Assembly (NCBI GenBank): GCA_030145325.1
Contig: JAQYVW010000023.1
Span: 1 to 40,507, forward strand
DNA from: Desulfurivibrionaceae bacterium
GTDB taxonomy: Bacteria; Desulfobacterota; Desulfobulbia; Desulfobulbales; UBA5123
DNA: 40,507 nt
Direction: 5' to 3'
Shown piece by piece: positions 16,633 to 30,672 of this stretch (its first letter is position 1; the number at the start of each line of letters is the position of its first letter). A program made the position numbers and the translations under genes. The notes beneath the pieces are model-generated. The model saw only the letters and a list, made by a program, of their open reading frames with translations, was not told where the DNA came from and did not search any database.

Positions 16633-17535
16633 TCAAACAATATCGCTGGTCATATTCCGGCAACGCTGCTCGACCTGATAGGCTATCCGCTGGACGCTTT
16701 CGTCATTCAAGAGATTATCACCGCGTGGTTTTCCCAAAAACAGCACGTTCTTTTCATTAACAACGCTTATTTCATGACGACCATTGGCCTCCACTATCCA
16801 GCCAGGCAAAAATATAATTCCCTTAACCAACACTTTCTCCCCCACCACCCGAGTCAACCAATCAGCGAGCCAAGTCGCCTGCCGTTTGACTCGATCAACG
16901 GGACTGGACTCACTCCAGGAGGGAAAAGATAACACCTTGCCGTCGTAAAACACCCGATCCTCAATATCCACCCGACGCTTGTTCGGCTTAGCCCGCCCAT
17001 TGGTTGCAACCGCATACACCCCGGACGGACCAACCAAAACATGATCAATATCAAAGCCATCGCCAGGAAAACCATGAAAAACAGCACACCCTTGCCGCAT
17101 CAGCGAATTCAACTCTTGCCCCACCGCCAACTCGCAATCAAGGTCAAGAGAATATTTCCGGCGAGTTGCCAGCAGCTGTAGGGTGAGAAAGAGAAGAGAG
17201 AGGAGTAAAGCTACCGCTAACAAGAACAAGATAAGAAGCCAGCCAGACAGAGAAGAGGTCGGCACCCCGCAAGTCTCTTGTCCCACAACCAGAAAAGCGG
17301 ACAACAACACCGGTGAAAAGATCAACAACAACAAATAAAGGTCAAGTTTAGCATCAACAATAGCAAGCCGCTGTCGCACCGACTCCCCGGGACCGCGCAA
17401 TAAGCTCCTGATCAGCGATGATTTTTTCTTTCGCAACCTGCCCTTAAGCAAAAAAACGAGAAGGTAGCTTACGGCAACCGCCCCAGCATAGCAGACAATA
17501 TAAGGCAACAGCGAAAGCAACTCCTGACCATCCAT
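16633..17535 (-). CDS. NERD-domain membrane protein
   Basis: A 300-residue protein. Two hydrophobic regions near the N-terminus (about residues 8-30 and 65-85) plus another at 98-125 place it in the membrane. A cytoplasmic NERD (nuclease-related) domain follows: ELAVGQELNSLMRQGCAVFHGF, then DIDHVLVGPSGVYAVATNGR, which holds the family's conserved core. ATG 17535 is chosen because GGGGAGGGG precedes it; the longer frame has no such site. NERD domains resemble Holliday-junction resolvase folds and may be nucleases; activity here is unknown. An unknown 110-residue gene lies 84 nt upstream on the same strand. Confidence 0.75.
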   Translation of the reverse strand: MDGQELLSLLPYIVCYAGAVAVSYLLVFLLKGRLRKKKSSLIRSLLRGPGESVRQRLAIVDAKLDLYLLLLIFSPVLLSAFLVVGQETCGVPTSSLSGWLLILFLLAVALLLSLLFLTLQLLATRRKYSLDLDCELAVGQELNSLMRQGCAVFHGFPGDGFDIDHVLVGPSGVYAVATNGRAKPNKRRVDIEDRVFYDGKVLSFPSWSESSPVDRVKRQATWLADWLTRVVGEKVLVKGIIFLPGWIVEANGRHEISVVNEKNVLFLGKPRGDNLLNDESVQRIAYQVEQRCRNMTSDIV

Positions 17536-17619
17536 GATTCCCCTCCCCAAAGACGGATAACCTCTCACGCATTTACCATTGCCAAACAAGGACAATAATA
17601 ACGCAGCAAAACCTACTTT

Positions 17620-17952
17620 TCAGGCTCGTCCAACCTTTACATCATGGGCAGATCGAAAATAATCGCTTTCTCGAGCAAAATCTTCAACCATCCGCCGCAA
17701 CTCCAGCAACCGCTGCTCGGAATTACTCACCGGCTCACAATCCTCACACATGGGATCGGAACAAGGCTGCCTAGTATAGAGCCAATAATGAATCGCCCCC
17801 ATTAGCAACCCGTCAGATATATCCCAAAGATCAGTATCAGGATGCTCAGCAGCGATGCGATTGGCAAGATCAACAACCTCACGGGCCGCCTCGTCATGGG
17901 GAACATCACTGTCCCCCTGCATCATGAACTTATCCTGTTTCGATAATCCCAT
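17620..17952 (-). CDS. Unknown small acidic protein
   Basis: This is a 110-residue protein that I do not recognise. It starts MGLSKQDKFMMQGD at 17952, after a GGGGG ribosome-binding tract; a longer start at 17979 lacks one. It has a potential metal site (CSDPMCEDC) in the middle and is otherwise acidic and helical, with no membrane segment. It is probably co-transcribed with the NERD gene. Confidence 0.6.
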   Translation of the reverse strand: MGLSKQDKFMMQGDSDVPHDEAAREVVDLANRIAAEHPDTDLWDISDGLLMGAIHYWLYTRQPCSDPMCEDCEPVSNSEQRLLELRRMVEDFARESDYFRSAHDVKVGRA

Positions 17953-18205
17953 AAACATCCCCCAAAAAATTATTGCCATTACCAGCAGCTACGAGTCAGC
18001 CGATAACCCATGGAAATGTGCTCAATGTGCTTTTACAACATATACCTATAGTCGCCATCCCGCCCCACCGCAACCCTGAGCATAATCAACGAGACAACCA
18101 GCAACATCCAAGTTGAGTATTTTACCGCAAGCCGGTATGGTTTAGGCAAAAGAAATTCTATCAAATCGAGCAGAAACTCGAAAAATTCACCAGAGACGAT
18201 GACGG

Positions 18206-23297: not shown

Positions 23298-24437
23298 ATG
23301 CAGGGCTTAATCGACAGCACCTTGCGGGAGGGGGCACAGAGCGTCGGAGTACACTTCTGCAGGAAAGAAAAAATAGCGATCATAAAACTACTGATCGCGG
23401 TGGGCATCGAGGAGATCGAATTGGGCCTCGCCACTGACCGCCAACGAATGGCGAACCTTCTCCACACCTGCCACAAACTAGAAAGCAAAACACGCTTTGC
23501 CCTCTGGTGCCGCTGCCGTAAAGACGACATCAGGGCAGCGGCACAATTGCGCCCCGACGTCCTCTCGCTGTCGATACCAACTTCGGATCTCCACCTGGAA
23601 CGACGCCTGCTACGCAACCGCCAATGGGCGATGGAAAGCATGCGGAATGCCATCACACAGGCGCGAGCTGCCAAACTCCCTTACATTTCAGTAGGATTTG
23701 AAGACGCCAGCCGCGCCAACCCCAACTTCTTAAAAGAACTTGCCAGGGAGGCAACCAGGGCAGGGGCAAACCGGATCCGCTTGGCTGACACCGTGGGCAC
23801 CTGCAGCCCGGCCCGGACACAAGAAATGGTCAGAGACTTGCGCAAAGATACCCCCTTGGCCATTGGCGTCCATATCCATAACGACTTCGGCATGGCCACC
23901 GCCAACACCATCGCCGCCCTGGAAGCAGGAGCAGACTGGGGAGATGTTTCGGTACTGGGACTAGGGGAAAGATCGGGAATGGCCAAACTGGAAGAGGTGG
24001 CAGGATTTCTTGCCATCCAAAATCGCCGCCCAGGCTACCGGGCCGACCTGTTGAAAACCTTATGTGCAACCGTGAGCCGGGCGGCAACACGAACCATCGA
24101 ACCTCACCACCCAGTAATCGGCGAAGCGATCTTCACCTGCGAAACAGGTCTCCACCTGCAAGGATTGCTACACGAACCAAGCACCTACGAACCGTTTGCC
24201 CCAGAACTGGTGGGCAGTGAACGACAACTGCTCTTCGGGGTCAAGGTGGGACAACGAGCGGTGGAAGGACTCCTGGCCAGCCAAAAACAAACCGCCACCC
24301 CAACCATGCTTAAGAAACTAACGGAATCAATCCGACAGCGGGCCAAAACAAATCAGCGCCCATTAACCGCTAGCGAAATAATCGCCACCAACAACACCTC
24401 ACCCATCACCCCGAAACGGAAGATTTTTTGCCGATAA
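23298..24437 (+). CDS. nifV: Homocitrate synthase-like (NifV family)
   Basis: A 379-residue HMG-CoA-lyase-like (DRE-TIM) acyltransferase. Family marks are DSTLREGAQS near the N-terminus, HIHNDFGMATAN (metal ligands), and GLGERSGMAKLEEV. NifV makes homocitrate from acetyl-CoA and 2-oxoglutarate, the organic ligand of FeMo-co. The length fits NifV and lacks the regulatory domain of long isopropylmalate synthases. A general homocitrate or citramalate synthase cannot be excluded, but a full nif operon 12 kb away makes NifV likely. Its 3' end overlaps the convergent arsC-like gene by 32 bp. Confidence 0.78.
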   Translation: MQGLIDSTLREGAQSVGVHFCRKEKIAIIKLLIAVGIEEIELGLATDRQRMANLLHTCHKLESKTRFALWCRCRKDDIRAAAQLRPDVLSLSIPTSDLHLERRLLRNRQWAMESMRNAITQARAAKLPYISVGFEDASRANPNFLKELAREATRAGANRIRLADTVGTCSPARTQEMVRDLRKDTPLAIGVHIHNDFGMATANTIAALEAGADWGDVSVLGLGERSGMAKLEEVAGFLAIQNRRPGYRADLLKTLCATVSRAATRTIEPHHPVIGEAIFTCETGLHLQGLLHEPSTYEPFAPELVGSERQLLFGVKVGQRAVEGLLASQKQTATPTMLKKLTESIRQRAKTNQRPLTASEIIATNNTSPITPKRKIFCR

Positions 24438-24867
24438 CCCCGGCCAACACCCCTTCAACAAAGGTACTAATCTCATCCCGGACCCGCCGATATTGCCCCA
24501 ACCCCTCTTCCTCACTACCCACTGCGGCAGCCAGGAATGGCGGATCATCAAAGGCCCGATGCAATCGGCGACCACCACCGGCAAAATAAGGACACTCCTC
24601 TTTGGCATGATCACAAAGGGTGATCACAACGTCAAAATGCTCCAGCGGCAAATCCTCAATAAGTTTGCACTGCTGAGCGGAGATATCAATCCCAACTTCA
24701 CCCATCACCGTCACGGCCTTGGGGTCCAAGCCATGAAGCATAACCCCGGCGGAAAAAACAACAACCGCCTCACCCCCAAAATGTTTCGCCCACCCCTCAG
24801 CCATTTGGCTACGACAGGCATTACCAGTACAAAGAAAAAGAACGGTATGTTTACCGGAGACTTCCAT
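24406..24867 (-). CDS. arsC: Arsenate reductase, low-molecular-weight phosphatase type
   Basis: A 153-residue thioredoxin-linked ArsC. The P-loop CTGNACRS gives Cys13 as the nucleophile, and CDHAKEEC supplies the redox pair seven residues apart, as in the S. aureus enzyme. It reduces arsenate to arsenite for export. ATG 24867 follows a GGGGAG site; upstream in-frame starts do not. It is the last minus-strand gene of the block and is separated from the TauE gene by 214 bp with a terminator, so it probably has its own promoter. Confidence 0.88.
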   Translation of the reverse strand: MEVSGKHTVLFLCTGNACRSQMAEGWAKHFGGEAVVVFSAGVMLHGLDPKAVTVMGEVGIDISAQQCKLIEDLPLEHFDVVITLCDHAKEECPYFAGGGRRLHRAFDDPPFLAAAVGSEEEGLGQYRRVRDEISTFVEGVLAGVIGKKSSVSG

Positions 24868-24961
24868 AAAGTTTCTCCCCATCTTCGTTTTAAGGGAATC
24901 TTGAAAAATTGTCTTTCTATTCAGCCTAGCTGAGTTATCTCGCTCGACCACCAAGTTACGC

Positions 24962-24986
24962 AAAAAATTTATCCTCGGAGATAAAT
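24962..24986 (-). terminator. Terminator of the ArsR1-SelD-TauE transcript
   Basis: On the minus strand, ATTTATC and GATAAAT (7-bp perfect arms, 24986-24980 and 24973-24967) flank the loop TCCGAG and run into a T-tract (24966-24962). It lies about 100 nt after the TauE stop. Confidence 0.65.
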
Positions 24987-25081: not shown

Positions 25082-25861
25082 CTACAGCCCCAAAGCACTG
25101 ATGCCCATACGAACGGCGGCAATCCCTACACAGGCCGCAAGCAACATCCGCAGACCAGCCACCGGCACCTTCCGACTGATGAAACCGCCAACCTGCGCGG
25201 CCGGCATCACCACCACCGCAATAACCAAGGCCAAGGGCCAAACAACCTGCCCGGTAACAGCCTTACCCAAAAAGGCGGCTAAAGAAGAAAGGAAGACGAT
25301 GGCCAGGTTACTGCCGATGGCAATGCGGGTGGGAACCTGCACAAAGGAAGTCATCAAAGGGATAAGGATAAAAGATCCGCCCTGCCCCACCATCCCGCCC
25401 AACAAGCCAACGGAACCAGCAGCCACAACCGCCCGACCACGACTGAAAGATAATTCATCCAGGTCGGGGTTCTCGCTATCCTTGGCAGTGGGCACAAAGA
25501 CAAGAGCCACCGCGACCAATGCCAGCAGGGCGAAGATCACCAACAACACCTCATTGGCAACCAGCCCCGCCATTGCCCCACCCGCCAGCGCAGTAATAAA
25601 AATCGGCGCCCCCATCCAGCAGGTAAGCCCACCGGAAACACAGTTAAAACGACGATGAATCAGCACCCCGGAAAGAGAAGCGGCAAGCCCCTGAACAATG
25701 GTTAGGCCAGCCACAACCTGCATCGCCATGGGCTCAAAACCGAACAAGGGCGGCACATAGAGCAGCAGCGGGGCCATGACAATGCCGCCACCTATCCCCA
25801 GCAAACCAGAAAGGAACCCGGCCACCAAAGCAAGTCCGGCCACCAACAAAGATAGGTCCAT
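25082..25861 (-). CDS. TauE/SafE-family membrane transporter
   Basis: A 259-residue protein with seven to eight predicted membrane helices and the internal repeat of the TauE/SafE family (GFLSGLLGIGGGIVMAPLLL in the N-half, GLLGGMVGQGGSFILIPLM in the C-half). Members export sulfite, sulfoacetate or other sulfur anions. The start is 2 nt after the selD stop, so the genes are translationally linked. The link with SelD and DsrE suggests sulfur or selenium oxyanion transport (inference). Confidence 0.85.
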   Translation of the reverse strand: MDLSLLVAGLALVAGFLSGLLGIGGGIVMAPLLLYVPPLFGFEPMAMQVVAGLTIVQGLAASLSGVLIHRRFNCVSGGLTCWMGAPIFITALAGGAMAGLVANEVLLVIFALLALVAVALVFVPTAKDSENPDLDELSFSRGRAVVAAGSVGLLGGMVGQGGSFILIPLMTSFVQVPTRIAIGSNLAIVFLSSLAAFLGKAVTGQVVWPLALVIAVVVMPAAQVGGFISRKVPVAGLRMLLAACVGIAAVRMGISALGL

Positions 25862-25863
25862 TA

Positions 25864-26916
25864 CTAGACCACAGTAATTCCGACCGAATCGTCAACCACC
25901 TCACCTATTTTAACGGCAACGGCGACTCCAGCCTTCCCTAGGGCGGCAATTAAAGCATCGGCCTGCTCGCCAGGAAGAGAAAGCAGCAGCCCTCCTGAGG
26001 TTTGCGGATCGTAAAGAAGCTCCTCTTCCGAGGCATCAAGAGACACCTCAAGACCAAGATGATGCTTGGCGACCATGGCCCGGTTGGCCTTATTACTGCC
26101 AGTGGTCTCACCCTTCCGGTACATGTCGAGAGCGCCGGAATAGAACGGCAGGTTCCGATAGTTAACTATCACCCGGGCATTACAGCCGTGAGACACCTCA
26201 AGGAGATGACCGAGGATACCGAAGCCGGTGACATCGGTGCAGGCATGGAGATCAAAACCAAGGGCCGCTTCCATGGCCTTGCCGTTCAGGGCTGCCAACG
26301 ATGGCAGGGTATCCCGCTCCAGTTCAGCAAAGGGCATCTTACCGGAACGCACTGAGTTAAAAAGCACCCCGGACCCCAGCGGCTTGGTGAGGATCAAGGC
26401 ATCACCAGGCCTGGAACCAGCATTGGTGATTACCCGCTCAGGATGAACAACCCCGTTCACGCATAACCCGTACTTGGGCTCTTCGTCGTCAACGGTATGC
26501 CCACCCACCAAACAGGCCCCGGCTTCAACCACCTTGTCGTGACCTCCACGCAGAATATCCTTCAGAAAGCCCATATCCAAATGCTTGGACGGGAACATCA
26601 CCACATTGAGAGCGGTGAGGGGCTTGCCGCCCATGGAGTAAACATCAGAGATAGAGTTAGCGGCAGAAATCTGCCCAAACCAGTAAGGATCATCAACCGG
26701 TGGGGTGATAAAATCAACGGTATTAATCATCGCAATCTCATCGGTCAACTTATAAACCGCAGCATCATCGGCGGTTTCGATACCAACCAAGAGATTAGGA
26801 TCATTGGGAGGGGTAAGCCCCTCCAGCGCGTCCGACAGATCCGTCGGACCAATTTTGGCCGCTCAACCGCAGGTACGGGCCAAGCCGGTGAGGGTCTTTT
26901 TCTTAAACAGAGCCAT
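25864..26916 (-). CDS. selD: Selenide, water dikinase (SelD), itself a selenoprotein
   Basis: Read from ATG 26916 (site AAAGGAGAA), the frame carries TGA as codon 18 (26865-26863) and then runs open to 25864, giving 350 residues. The N-terminus reads TCGU-AAKIGP, the known active-site pattern of Sec-containing SelD. Downstream motifs include the ATP-binding ETADDAAVY, DFITPPVDDPYWFG, GGHTVDDEEPKYG and TDVTGFGILGHL. It makes selenophosphate from selenide and ATP. A strong SECIS hairpin follows the UGA. The gene begins 10 nt after the DsrE-like gene. Annotating from the first Met after the UGA region would lose the catalytic residue. Confidence 0.95.
26830..26849 (-). promoter_or_regulatory. 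SECIS hairpin of selD
   Basis: On the minus strand, GUCCGAC (26849-26843) and GUCGGAC (26836-26830) form a perfect 7-bp stem capped by the hexaloop GGAUCU. The loop begins 20 nt after the UGA, a typical bacterial SECIS geometry. Confidence 0.85.
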
Positions 26917-26926
26917 GGGTTCTCCT

Positions 26927-27286
26927 TTATATGGTAATGGTTTCCCGATCCATCATCTCAGCGGCAATGGTGGGAAGCTGTACAACTTTTACTCCGGCAA
27001 CCAGATCTGCTTCGGCAACCTCATAGGTCTTAGCGCAAGCGCCACAGAGATACATGGGAACCTCCGCCTCCAGCAGGGCCGGGAAAAGGTCTCGCACCGG
27101 GGCAAGATTTCGACCATGGATCGTCTCCGCCACCCCTTTTTTCGCCAGCAATGCTCCCTCAAAAATGAAAAAGATGACAAGATCCGCTTCCTCACTGAGC
27201 AAAGAAACCGCTAAGCCCACCGCAGCATTGGCCCTATCCTGATTATCAGTGGAGTGAGTAATCATTAACAGGTATTTTTTCTTCAC
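26927..27286 (-). CDS. DsrE-like protein
   Basis: A 119-residue cytoplasmic protein of the DsrE/DsrF-like fold. It has the conserved cysteine segment MYLCGACAKTYEV and a hydrophobic beta-strand pattern (LVIFFIFEGALL). GTG 27286 is chosen because GGAGG precedes it; the frame's first start codon, a TTG, overlaps that site. Relatives carry sulfur or selenium as persulfides. It is co-transcribed with selD (10-nt gap), which makes a selenium or sulfur relay role likely (inference). Confidence 0.78.
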   Translation of the reverse strand: MKKKYLLMITHSTDNQDRANAAVGLAVSLLSEEADLVIFFIFEGALLAKKGVAETIHGRNLAPVRDLFPALLEAEVPMYLCGACAKTYEVAEADLVAGVKVVQLPTIAAEMMDRETITI

Positions 27287-27378
27287 AGTAACCTCCTTCA
27301 ACCATTAGAAATAACAACTCAAGCATCATAACACTTATAACCCAGCAAGTCCCGATACATGCAGCAGAAAACCGAATC

Positions 27379-27828
27379 CTAAATCTTGCCTTCCCGACCA
27401 AGCTTGGCCATGAGAAAAGCGGCCCCACTCCTGGAAAGACCGAGACTTTCCGCCAGTTCCACAGCAGCCCCTGTGGGATGCTCACGCAGATAGGCCACCA
27501 CCTCCTCTTCAAGCTCCGCCAACCAACTTTCGAACAGCAACAGAATGTTTGGGTCGGCCACCGTCAGCAATTGCTTGGACTGCGCGACCTTCTGAACCAG
27601 AGCTTGACACATTTGGGTTGGATCGACACCTTCGTCCATGCATTCAGCCAGTCAGAGATTCACCATACTAACAACCTTGTCGCCACCAGAATCATCAAGG
27701 AGAGAGGTGACAAAGTCAACCCTGACCTCCTCTTCAAGGTGAGCAAGAACCTTCTTGAGCACCGGGCCAATTGCCGACAAGGCTTCGCCCGGCTCCAGGT
27801 TGGCCATAATTCGCTGTAATTCTTCCAT
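27379..27828 (-). CDS. Candidate selenoprotein with C-terminal winged-helix-like domain
   Basis: From ATG 27828, 15 nt after the ArsR stop, the frame reads 58 codons, meets TGA (27654-27652), then runs on for 90 codons to 27379: 149 residues if UGA is read as Sec. The region around it is VVSMVNL-U-LAECMDEG, a U-x3-C pattern. The N-part is helical (LKKVLAHLEEEVRVDFVTSLLDD) and the C-terminal 40 residues resemble a winged helix (VELAESLGLSRSGAAFLMAKLG). The first ATG after the TGA (27639) has no Shine-Dalgarno and lies inside a SECIS-like hairpin, so an independent downstream gene is less likely. The flanking genes are ArsR and dsrE-selD. I do not recognise the family firmly. Confidence 0.55.
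27622..27639 (-). promoter_or_regulatory. Possible SECIS hairpin of the candidate selenoprotein
   Basis: On the minus strand AUGGAC (27639-27634) and GUCGAU (27627-27622) pair with one G-G mismatch around the hexaloop GAAGGU. The loop starts 18 nt after the UGA. It is weaker than the other two SECIS candidates but shares loop size and spacing. Confidence 0.4.
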
Positions 27829-27843
27829 TGCCTTACGTTCCCG

Positions 27844-28194
27844 TTAAAAGGTTGTGCGATTAGCCAGCAGATCCACCGCCAAGCCGTGCATGGTGGCAAC
27901 AATTTCTTCAATCCGACAATCGGCCAGTTCGTAATAAACAAAAGGCCCACGCCGCTCCACAGTCACCAGCAACGCCCTTTTTAGCTCCCGCAAATGGTGT
28001 GAAGCCAAGGGTTGAGAAATCGCCAGATCCGTGACAAGAGTCGACACCGACTTTTTCCCTGTAGCCAGCGCCATCAGGATTCGGAGGCGATTCTCGTCCG
28101 CCAGCGCCTTGGCCAAAAAGGAGACCGTACGAGGATCAATTGTGGATATATTTTTAAGAATCGGGACTTTCTGCAAACGCTTCCTAGCTCCCAT
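27844..28194 (-). CDS. ArsR-family regulator 1
   Basis: A 116-residue winged-helix repressor. Core motifs are FLAKALADENRLRILMAL and the recognition helix AISQPLASHHLRELKRALLV. The ELCVCEL metal motif of classic ArsR is absent, so the inducer is unclear. ATG 28194 is chosen because the predicted promoter (28235-28263) would start transcription near 28228, after the longer in-frame start at 28248. It heads the minus-strand operon leading to dsrE, selD and the TauE gene, and may autoregulate it. Confidence 0.85.
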   Translation of the reverse strand: MGARKRLQKVPILKNISTIDPRTVSFLAKALADENRLRILMALATGKKSVSTLVTDLAISQPLASHHLRELKRALLVTVERRGPFVYYELADCRIEEIVATMHGLAVDLLANRTTF

Positions 28195-28234
28195 CAGGTC
28201 ATTACCAAGACAACATGGCCATCGCCACCCAAAC

Positions 28235-28263
28235 ACATAAGCATACATTTATATGGCTGTCAA
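28235..28263 (-). promoter_or_regulatory. Promoter of the ArsR1-SelD operon
   Basis: On the minus strand TTGACA (28263-28258) and TTATGT (28240-28235) are 17 bp apart, with A/T-rich spacer sequence suited to an ArsR operator. Its -35 box touches the T-tract of the upstream terminator. Confidence 0.5.
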
Positions 28264-28301: not shown

Positions 28302-28685
28302 TTAGCAACAGCCAGTAATGCGGCAAATCGCCTCCCAGATAAATTGTGGTGGAATCGCTTCATGAACAGTGCCGAAACGGACGATGGTTCGACAGGATTC
28401 CTCCTGACCGGTGAGATCACCACAGGAGCAACAGCAACTCGTGGAGACCTTAGCCTCCGGCAAAATATCTTCGATGGGCACCCCGTCGATCAAAATCAGG
28501 TTAGATTGATCGATCTCCGCTACCGCCAACAAGGTTTCGCGAAAAACAATCTCCACCCCCTTGTCCAAACACTCTCCTTGCAACGCCTGCACGGTTTCGA
28601 CAACTCCAACCCCGGTTTCAGCGCAACGGTCACAGGTCTGCCCATCTTTATCCAGATGTTTCCACTCAACAACAATCCGTTTCAC
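28302..28685 (-). CDS. DUF2703-like cysteine-rich protein
   Basis: A 127-residue protein resembling DUF2703: it begins with an IVVEWKHL strand, then TCDRCAETG, and has a later Cys-rich patch STSCCCSCGDLTGQEESC. The fold is likely thioredoxin-like or ferredoxin-like, with thiols for metal or metalloid binding. GTG 28685 fits the spacing to GGGTGAG best; TTG 28688 is possible. It follows the mini-thioredoxin and ArsP-like permease genes, so a metalloid function is likely (inference). Confidence 0.65.
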   Translation of the reverse strand: MKRIVVEWKHLDKDGQTCDRCAETGVGVVETVQALQGECLDKGVEIVFRETLLAVAEIDQSNLILIDGVPIEDILPEAKVSTSCCCSCGDLTGQEESCRTIVRFGTVHEAIPPQFIWEAICRITGCC

Positions 28686-28752
28686 CAACTCACCCTACCC
28701 ACAAAATGTTACTAACAGCCGAAGAAGTAACTAAACAAGCCCGCGCCCCCAC

Positions 28753-28980
28753 CTACAGCCAACCGCTCACCTCAGCAACAGCGGGCACCTTACCAACACA
28801 CTTCACCTGCCCGTCAACCACCACCGCTGGGGTGGAGAATACGCCCAACTTGGCTATGGCCTGAAAATCCGTAACCTTCACAATCTCCACCTGCAACCCA
28901 GCGGCCTCAACCGCCGCCTGTACAACCTGCATTGCCTCGTTGCATTTAGCACACCCAGGACCACATATCTTAATTTCCAT
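28753..28980 (-). CDS. Mini-thioredoxin (redox-active disulfide protein)
   Basis: A 75-residue thioredoxin-fold protein. The active site CAKC follows KICGPG at residues 10-13, and the cis-Pro segment VFSTPAVVVDG lies near residue 50. Such small thioredoxins often sit beside ArsP-like permeases. It starts 15 nt after the permease stop and is clearly co-transcribed. Confidence 0.88.
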   Translation of the reverse strand: MEIKICGPGCAKCNEAMQVVQAAVEAAGLQVEIVKVTDFQAIAKLGVFSTPAVVVDGQVKCVGKVPAVAEVSGWL

Positions 28981-28995
28981 TTCCTACTCCAAAAA

Positions 28996-30084
28996 TCAAA
29001 TAACCAGATTGAAAAGAAAACCAACCAGCAAAATACCAGTGGCCACCACTGCCGCAAAAACCATCACCAAACGCACCTTGAGCACCTTCCGCAAGATCAC
29101 CATTTCCGGAAAGGAAAGCGCGATCACCGACATCATAAAAGCCAGGGCCGTTCCCAACGCCGCCCCTTTCTCTAACAAAGCATGGATAATAGGGACAATA
29201 CCAGCGGCATTGGAATACATGGGCACCCCAAGCAACACCGCTGCTGGCACCGACCACCAGGCATCCTTACCCATGATCGAAGCCATCATCCCCTGGGGCA
29301 CATAACCATGAATCACCGCGCCAACGAAGATCCCGCCCACCACATACGGCCAGACCTTGCCGACAATATCCCGCACCGCCTCACGACCATAACGCAAGCG
29401 AGTGGCCCAGGTATGCTCATCTTCAGATGAGTCCGAGGCGTCCAGCACATCTCGGACCCAATCTTCAACATAATCCTCCATCCCTAGCCGCCCGATAACC
29501 CACCCCGCCACCATGGCCACCAACAGCCCGGTACCCAGGTAAAGAGCGGCAACCTTCCAGCCCAACAGCCCGTAGAGGAGAACCAGGGCAATCTCGTTGA
29601 CCATGGGGGCCGCAATAAGAAAGGAAAAGGTTACCCCCAGTGGCACCCCAGCAGTCACAAAGCCGATAAAAAGCGGCACCGCCGAGCAGGAACAAAAAGG
29701 AGTCACAATCCCCAGCAAGGCAGCCAGCACATTACCTGTCGCCTCATGTCGCCCGGCAAGAAGCCGCCGGGTCCGCTCCGGGGTAAAAAAAGATCGAATA
29801 ACACCAACCCCATAAACCACCAACAGCAGCAGCATTAACACCTTGGGGGTATCGTAAAGAAAAAACTGCACGGAAGCGCCAAGATGACTTTCTGGCTGCA
29901 AGCCGAGTAAGCCGAAAGCAAGATAACCGGAAAGAGGCAGCAGCTGGCGGTAGAGCAGGTACCAGGCCACCACTCCAACCAGGCCGCCACCACAAACACT
30001 GAAGGGCGACAACCTTTTACCATGAACGGGAGGGGGCGAAACAGGAGTCTCAGAATGTTTTTTAAAAGAGGGCAAGGGCTGCAT
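28996..30084 (-). CDS. ArsP/YraQ-type permease
   Basis: A 362-residue membrane protein with eight to ten predicted helices. The hallmark GIVTPFCSCSAVPLFIGF lies in the first half, and VLLGVPMYSNAAGIVPIIHALLEKG in the second, as in ArsP_1 (DUF318) permeases. Known members export organoarsenicals or other soft metal(loid)s. ATG 30084 follows AAGGATTGAG; an in-frame GTG at 30102 is weaker. The mini-thioredoxin and DUF2703-like genes follow. Confidence 0.87.
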   Translation of the reverse strand: MQPLPSFKKHSETPVSPPPVHGKRLSPFSVCGGGLVGVVAWYLLYRQLLPLSGYLAFGLLGLQPESHLGASVQFFLYDTPKVLMLLLLVVYGVGVIRSFFTPERTRRLLAGRHEATGNVLAALLGIVTPFCSCSAVPLFIGFVTAGVPLGVTFSFLIAAPMVNEIALVLLYGLLGWKVAALYLGTGLLVAMVAGWVIGRLGMEDYVEDWVRDVLDASDSSEDEHTWATRLRYGREAVRDIVGKVWPYVVGGIFVGAVIHGYVPQGMMASIMGKDAWWSVPAAVLLGVPMYSNAAGIVPIIHALLEKGAALGTALAFMMSVIALSFPEMVILRKVLKVRLVMVFAAVVATGILLVGFLFNLVI

Positions 30085-30297
30085 CTTCTCAATCCTTAAC
30101 ACCGGCCCAGTAAGCCTTTGGCAGAACTGGAACCGATGAGGTCAAAATTAAATAATGAAAGCGCGAAAGCAAACTCTGCAAGAGGTATATTCACATACAA
30201 CTATATGGTTAACCTGTTTAAAGTCAACCCCCTTTTGCTTTTTAGACAAAGTTACGACCTTCCGATAGATACAACAGGGGTTATGCCGGAACCGGGC

Positions 30298-30672
30298 TTA
30301 CGATAACGCGGCAGGAGAATTATTACTTTTCTTGCCAGCACAAAGGACCAAGCGGTCAACAGACGGCAACTCCGCCAACAACTTTTGCACCTCTGGATCA
30401 TGCGCCAGCCAGCCACGGAGATTTTCCAATAACGTCTTGGCATAAATTGAAGAAGGAGCCAAGCGATAATAAACCCACTGCCCCTCCTTACGACTGATGA
30501 CCAAACCGGCCTCTTCCAGAACCTTAAGGTGCTTGGAAACCGTGGGTTGAGCCAGACCAATAACCGCACGCAGTTCACAAACACAAAGCTCACGAACCTC
30601 AAGGGCCTTGACGACCTTGACTCGACTGGGATCAGACAACGCCTTCATGACCTTAATAAACGACTTCTCCAT
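30298..30672 (-). CDS. ArsR/SmtB-family regulator 2
   Basis: A 124-residue winged-helix repressor. It contains the classic metalloid motif ELCVCEL (alpha3 site) and the recognition helix LAQPTVSKHLKVLEEAGLV. It likely releases DNA on binding arsenite or antimonite. It is the second gene of a two-gene unit, 34 nt after the small membrane protein, and lies upstream of the permease operon it may control. Confidence 0.9.
   Translation of the reverse strand: MEKSFIKVMKALSDPSRVKVVKALEVRELCVCELRAVIGLAQPTVSKHLKVLEEAGLVISRKEGQWVYYRLAPSSIYAKTLLENLRGWLAHDPEVQKLLAELPSVDRLVLCAGKKSNNSPAALS

Follow-up and report, generated by a model that had tools for sequence, protein, structure and literature searches.

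The gene tsoA lies on the minus strand at 27379..27828 of the window, the whole stretch of 40,507 nt from a Desulfurivibrionaceae bacterium that was analysed. It extends from an ATG at 27828 to a TAG at 27381-27379 and encodes a protein of 149 aa with a LULAEC motif, in which U stands for the predicted selenocysteine (Sec) 59. The UGA at codon 59 (27654-27652) is the sole in-frame TGA, has the context VNL-U-LAEC and is followed by 90 sense codons. The first-pass annotation, made from the sequence alone, had given exactly these coordinates, the single TGA at codon 59, the 90 sense codons and the VNL-U-LAEC context. The strand was absent there, and the gene is on the minus strand. A plus-strand reading of 27379-27828 was rejected, since nothing comparable to the tsoA frame was present.

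The ATG of tsoA is located 15 nt past the stop codon of tsoR (27844..28248 as an open reading frame, minus strand), which encodes an ArsR/SmtB-type repressor. Downstream of tsoA and on the same strand follow a gene for a DsrE-like protein in its Cys form (26927..27301; PF02635, 61.9 bits), selD (25864..26916), which itself encodes a selenoprotein (U18) and is the one selD that scores over the cut-off in this genome, and, 2 nt past selD, a gene for a TauE/SafE-type sulfur-anion permease (25082..25861; PF01925). Thus the ArsR-family gene next to tsoA and the selD two genes downstream were both present as previously described. Profile matches identified an ArsC-like arsenate reductase gene (24406..24963, minus strand) downstream of this cassette. 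Upstream of tsoR, the stretch 28302..30672 harbors, all on the minus strand, genes for a DUF2703 protein (28302-28688), an ArsE/MTH895-type thioredoxin (28753-28980) and an ArsP_1 permease (28996-30102), which were assigned by profile matches, and for a canonical ArsR with an ELCVCEL site (30298-30672). This canonical ArsR gene heads the ArsP-thioredoxin-DUF2703 genes and is present besides tsoR, so that one cluster encodes two differently built ArsR proteins.

The product of tsoA matched the NCBIfam model NF045695 "LULAXC motif selenoprotein TsoA" with 205 bits (cut-off 170) over positions 1-144 of the 144 in the profile, and the L-U-L-A-x-C motif with its in-frame UGA is present as LULAEC. 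TsoA is named together with TsoB, TsoC, TsoX and TsoY among the predicted selenoproteins in a 2026 review (PMC13188914), which credits TsoA to Haft and Tolstoy (2025, mSystems 10:e0141724). The family had been considered undescribed in the annotation. Since the protein scores above the NF045695 cut-off over its full length and the name is found in the literature, this view had to be abandoned, and the window protein is a new member of the known, functionally uncharacterised TsoA family. A literature search for TsoR or LULAXC found nothing past this review, a PDB sequence search with TsoA gave no match, no TsoA was found on plasmids, and Rfam had no match across the window. Pfam alone gave weak HTH matches for TsoA, with HTH_24 at 17.2 bits, under its cut-off of 21.9.

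The window shares with the NF045695 TsoA system the full-length HMM match, the LULAEC motif, Sec and the adjoining TsoR (NF045707). It differs in that no TsoB-family protein of the genome reached the cut-off (NF045694, best score 81.6 bits, cut-off 805) and a DsrE-SelD-TauE cassette is found instead. The TsoX profile (NF045809) had no match in the genome, and the control genomes likewise were without a match. DsrE-like selenoproteins, TsoB and TsoX occur in the same cassettes as TsoA, many of them with a UGA, but no sequence similarity to TsoA was seen, and the DsrE of the window is the Cys form.

Among 395 genomes of the phylum, 43 genes matched the TsoA profile across codon 59, each with one in-frame TGA. 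Together with 19 loci from genome contigs they gave a set of 62 distinct full-length homologues. All 62 have TGA at codon 59 and none has Cys, an agreement that goes far past what chance would give; Cys is found at U+4 in 62/62 and at U+15 in 57/62 sequences. The genome encodes SelB (382 bits) and tRNA-Sec (74.9 bits). Homologues with Cys at position 59 had been proposed as support for Sec. This check fails as it was worded, because a Cys59 form does not occur among the full-length homologues. A split of the homologues into two genes, which had been named as the finding that would speak against Sec, was seen in 0 of the 62. For the sequences at hand we consider the unanimous UGA together with the covarying SECIS hairpin as stronger evidence than Cys homologues. 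It is unusual that no Cys form exists among the full-length members seen, and this suggests a need for selenium itself in TsoA.

The SECIS hairpin GGACGAAGGTGTCGATCC (27620..27637, minus strand) begins 14 nt past the UGA and was defined by comparative folding and covariation. It consists of a 6-bp stem with a bulged A and a 5-nt loop, AGGUG (GGACGA-AGGTG-TCG-A-TCC). A hexaloop hairpin had been predicted by the annotation: the hairpin is there (27637-27620), the hexaloop is not. A hexaloop, CGGUGU, occurs in the hairpin of divergent relatives, on a different stem (GGATTC-CGGTGT-GAATCC). In the alignment (26 distinct sequences) 97.4% of the cells were paired and 14 cells showed two-sided changes, while 3.3 were expected; these pairing counts lean towards the structure, as the aligned sequences are related and their own folds supplied it. 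The covariation score was 0.325 compared to 0.144 for shuffled alignments and was reached in none of 500 shuffles, and slid controls had at most 53% of the cells paired. Synonymous codons were frozen at the hairpin (GAA for Glu66 in 54/54, GGT for Gly67 in 56/62, CTG for Leu60 in 52/54), while conserved Glu and Leu codons elsewhere in tsoA were mixed (rank test, p 0.014 on few positions).

Stability above that of shuffled sequences is a usual supporting feature of bacterial SECIS elements and no strict requirement. When the hairpin region was folded alone, as the annotation had recommended, its stability did not exceed that of the shuffles (z +1.06; 171 of 200 shuffles were at least as stable), which is not significant. 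As expected for a bacterial SECIS, a conserved hairpin closely follows the UGA, and its loop, AGGUG, contains G residues. The support for the SECIS hairpin is comparative, as read from the aligned sequences, and does not come from single-sequence stability.

The selenoprotein with a U-x3-C motif that the annotation had proposed is borne out by the UGA in 62/62 homologues and by the covarying hairpin, and it is almost certain that UGA 59 is read as Sec with the help of the downstream hairpin. That it is a plain stop, be it between two short neighboring genes, in a pseudogene or through faulty assembly, has next to no probability: an ATG does follow at 27639, four codons past the UGA, and the hairpin folded alone is not unusually stable, but the same frame and UGA are kept in 62/62 sequences of many genera, with conserved residues on both sides of the UGA and with SECIS covariation, and for practical purposes this reading is refuted. 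The annotation had counted two other UGA/SECIS genes in the window. One of them was confirmed as selD (U18); a second UGA gene other than selD was sought in the window and not found. At 16633-17979, a TGA (GRA-U-KVGFAALLL) connects two frames of the minus strand; it is more likely a plain stop with an overlapping start than Sec.

TsoR of the window matched NF045707 "ArsR/SmtB-type metalloregulator TsoR" with 142 bits (cut-off 115), the ArsR HTH model NF033788 with 78.3 bits (cut-off 55) and PF01022. Wherever the upstream DNA of a TsoA or TsoA-like gene was available, it contained an ArsR-type gene; one locus (L063) begins at the gene itself. TsoR over the cut-off occurred in 32 of the 395 genomes, and TsoA adjoined it in all except G137. 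Judged from these gene arrangements, the pair tsoR-tsoA is a fixed module of two genes. Measured against the review (PMC13188914), the ArsR-type gene beside every TsoA with upstream DNA is added here. In G137 (L076:1673-2230(+)) tsoR has an internal TAA, tsoA is missing and a DsrE-like gene with a UGA comes next.

Downstream of tsoA the loci were mosaic, with TsoB rhodanese genes with a UGA, DsrE-like genes, often with a UGA, and TsoX-like, TauE, SQR-like and DUF5714 genes. TsoB, TsoX, SQR-like and DUF5714 were counted here by motif or sequence resemblance to chosen probes and not by profiles. No downstream gene was constant across the tsoA loci, and most belong to sulfur/selenium relay (TsoB, DsrE, TsoX, TauE, SelD). 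All-against-all clustering of the neighboring frames was discarded in favor of the probe searches, as it chained antisense frames together. In L009, L012, L018, L056 and others, a DsrE-like gene with an in-frame UGA directly follows tsoA (GILQAUGKILD in L018).

The CxC metal site in helix 3 was absent from a 66-row TsoR alignment, and the window protein has KSVSTLV in place of ELCVCEL. The same alignment contained no conserved cysteine: at one core position 27% of the rows carry Cys, and there is no conserved second position as in the BigR/SqrR-type pair. Judged from these sequences, the NCBI name "metalloregulator" has no visible ligand residues behind it. That TsoR appears to lack conserved sensing cysteines is a further addition to the review (PMC13188914).

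An imperfect palindrome, CATATAAATGTATGCTTATGTG (28234..28255, minus strand), was found by a pattern search of the window, the loci and the genome and represents a putative operator. A candidate -35 box, TTGACA (28258..28263, minus strand), is positioned directly upstream. The consensus CATATAAA-N6-TTTATATG was derived from 64 loci, of which 39 have it before tsoR with at least 12 of 16 positions. A search of the window at up to 3 mismatches gave this site alone, where 0.05 hits were expected. When the pattern was loosened slightly to accommodate the two deviations of the site, no other exact match existed in the 3.36-Mb genome. The reversed pattern, used as a control with 2 mismatches permitted, still hit the genome 4 times, and weaker sites there are therefore meaningless. 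The regions before tsoR were enriched in inverted repeats, and CTTGACA was present upstream in 26 loci, compared to 1.9 in shuffles. Since the ATG at 28248 is inside the operator, the true start of TsoR is probably the ATG at 28194 and not that of the open reading frame list. It is probable that TsoR, acting at this palindrome next to TTGACA, is a repressor of its own operon. The putative palindromic operator before tsoR, which the window shares, is also new relative to the review (PMC13188914).

In 22 aligned TsoA proteins V56, Sec59, E62, C63, D65, G67, V68, P70, L87, P93, F99, W102, E105, E107, F138 and K142 were invariant. The AlphaFold2 model (mean pLDDT 77.7, pTM 0.40) was all-helical, with a predicted helical N-terminal part and a C-terminal winged helix at about residues 100-149. 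The pLDDT was about 90 in the winged helix and 55-70 in the region around Sec59, and the central part is of low confidence. Sec59 and Cys63 are placed by the model in one helix, one turn apart. The C-terminus aligned to the winged helices of Lrp, Z-alpha, DeoR and IclR proteins with Z scores of 6 to 8 over about 50 residues, values that are common for this fold; for 2qz8 (LrpA) Z was 7.7 with an rmsd of 1.5 for 47 aligned residues, and the Foldseek E value was >0.1. The model and the structural alignment agree with the winged-helix-like C-terminus postulated in the annotation. For the N-terminal 92 residues folded alone, comparison to 26 chains gave no convincing match, with a best Z of 3.3, which does not imply a new fold.

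Profile searches also reached TsoA relatives outside the NCBIfam family, with 94, 60, 57 and 81 bits compared to the cut-off of 170; the divergent and Met-rich relatives were sampled within one phylum. One subfamily, "MVEYUINECTDSGVNP", has UxxxC and a perfect 6-bp SECIS-like hairpin (L005, L018, L059, L062, L063; for example L005:2804-3580(-) and L018:1369-2298(-)), and a DUF5714-like gene often follows it. A short Met-rich form, "MVERUMQMC", with an in-frame UGA was represented by three genes of one genus (L067, L068 and a second copy in G281), and the evidence for this form is thin. In L067 and L068 an ArsR-type gene is located about 1 kb before this gene, and the palindrome TTATATGAGCTTATACTCATATAA is present upstream. 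Short Met-rich relatives of the TsoA C-terminal domain that lack Sec were found in L064, L065, L066, L069 and L070, each preceded by an ArsR-type gene that lacks conserved cysteines; one of these Sec-less relatives has no Cys at all. The alignment of both short forms to Sec59 or to a position 11 residues later is ambiguous. All three forms are located behind an ArsR-type gene, save for L063, the locus without upstream DNA. These relatives under the NCBI cut-off, with Sec forms and Sec-less Met-rich forms, are likewise added to what the review (PMC13188914) contains.

BigR is an ArsR-type sensor of H2S/polysulfide that senses via two cysteines and has genes for a rhodanese-like enzyme and TauE in its operon (PMC5823870), and ArsR-type relatives without the two cysteines have been noted (PMC12423496). 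TsoR has in common with BigR/SqrR (PMC5823870, PMC12423496) that it is an ArsR-family repressor, that rhodanese-like and TauE-type genes occur in the operon and that the putative operator is in the promoter region. The two conserved cysteines by which BigR senses have no counterpart as a conserved pair in TsoR, which instead is always adjoined by a Sec protein.

We tentatively favor, at somewhat less than even chances, that TsoA is the sensing partner in a TsoR-controlled response to reactive sulfur, selenium or soft metalloids. TsoR, which lacks conserved metal- or sulfur-sensing cysteines, would bind the palindrome beside TTGACA and repress its own operon. Sec59-x3-Cys63 would capture a soft species, which could be a persulfide or polysulfide, selenide or perselenide, or a thiophilic metalloid, and this capture might inform or relieve TsoR. 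Downstream, a cassette for sulfur/selenium relay or for defence (DsrE, SelD and TauE in the window; the rhodanese-DsbD protein TsoB, TsoX and DsrE elsewhere) would then be made when needed. The fixed adjacency of tsoR and tsoA, the putative operator, the apparent lack of conserved Cys in TsoR, the sulfur/selenium genes downstream and the analogy to the BigR-type sulfide operons are consistent with such a role. On the other hand, the contact between TsoA and TsoR is our inference, and their adjacency may also fit tsoA as the first gene of an autoregulated operon. Moreover, about a quarter of the TsoR proteins have Cys at one core position, just 39 of the 64 loci have the operator with 12 or more matching positions out of 16, and the model of TsoA has low confidence in its central part.

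Sec is usually a mark of catalysis. It is possible, if rather doubtful, that TsoA is an effector, a Sec redox or sulfur/selenium-transfer protein, and that TsoR merely regulates it and senses by its own means. Such a protein would relay sulfane sulfur or selenide between the rhodanese TsoB, DsrE, TsoX and, here, SelD; the neighbors are sulfurtransferase-like or Grx-like, many with a UGA, and the sole selD over the cut-off in the genome sits in the tsoA operon. However, U-x3-C within a helix is no usual redox motif, the Sec-less relatives have Met-rich sequence at the Sec region and one of them has no Cys, and the downstream genes are inconstant, while TsoR is constant.

A small chaperone or buffer for As(III), Hg(II) or Cu(I), with Sec59 and Cys63 chelating the metal from positions one helix turn apart, appears rather unlikely. 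ArsP, the ArsE-type thioredoxin, ArsC and ArsR are encoded near tsoA in the window, and the Met/Cys-rich segments that replace Sec/Cys in relatives can bind soft metals but are incapable of thiol redox chemistry. The Met-rich relatives argue for ligand binding over thiol redox. In most other loci, however, sulfur genes and not arsenic genes adjoin tsoA, and the canonical arsenic ArsR of the window is a different gene (30298-30672).

The sensing role of TsoA can be extended to the idea, which we hold to be unlikely as it stands, that TsoR and TsoA are a split sensor: an ArsR-type repressor would have lost its own sensing residues and would rely on a separate winged-helix selenoprotein. If true, the Sec-x3-Cys pair would read reactive sulfur, selenium or a soft metalloid, and TsoR-TsoA would belong as one branch to a larger family of ArsR-paired proteins, where members rich in Met/Cys and free of Sec do the same job. 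To a selenoprotein family without an assigned function, the module, the putative operator and the wider family add structure that can be tested. With a constant repressor partner that lacks conserved sensing cysteines, and with a defined operator sequence, a so far anonymous selenoprotein becomes a regulatory system of sulfate-reducer relatives that is open to experiment.
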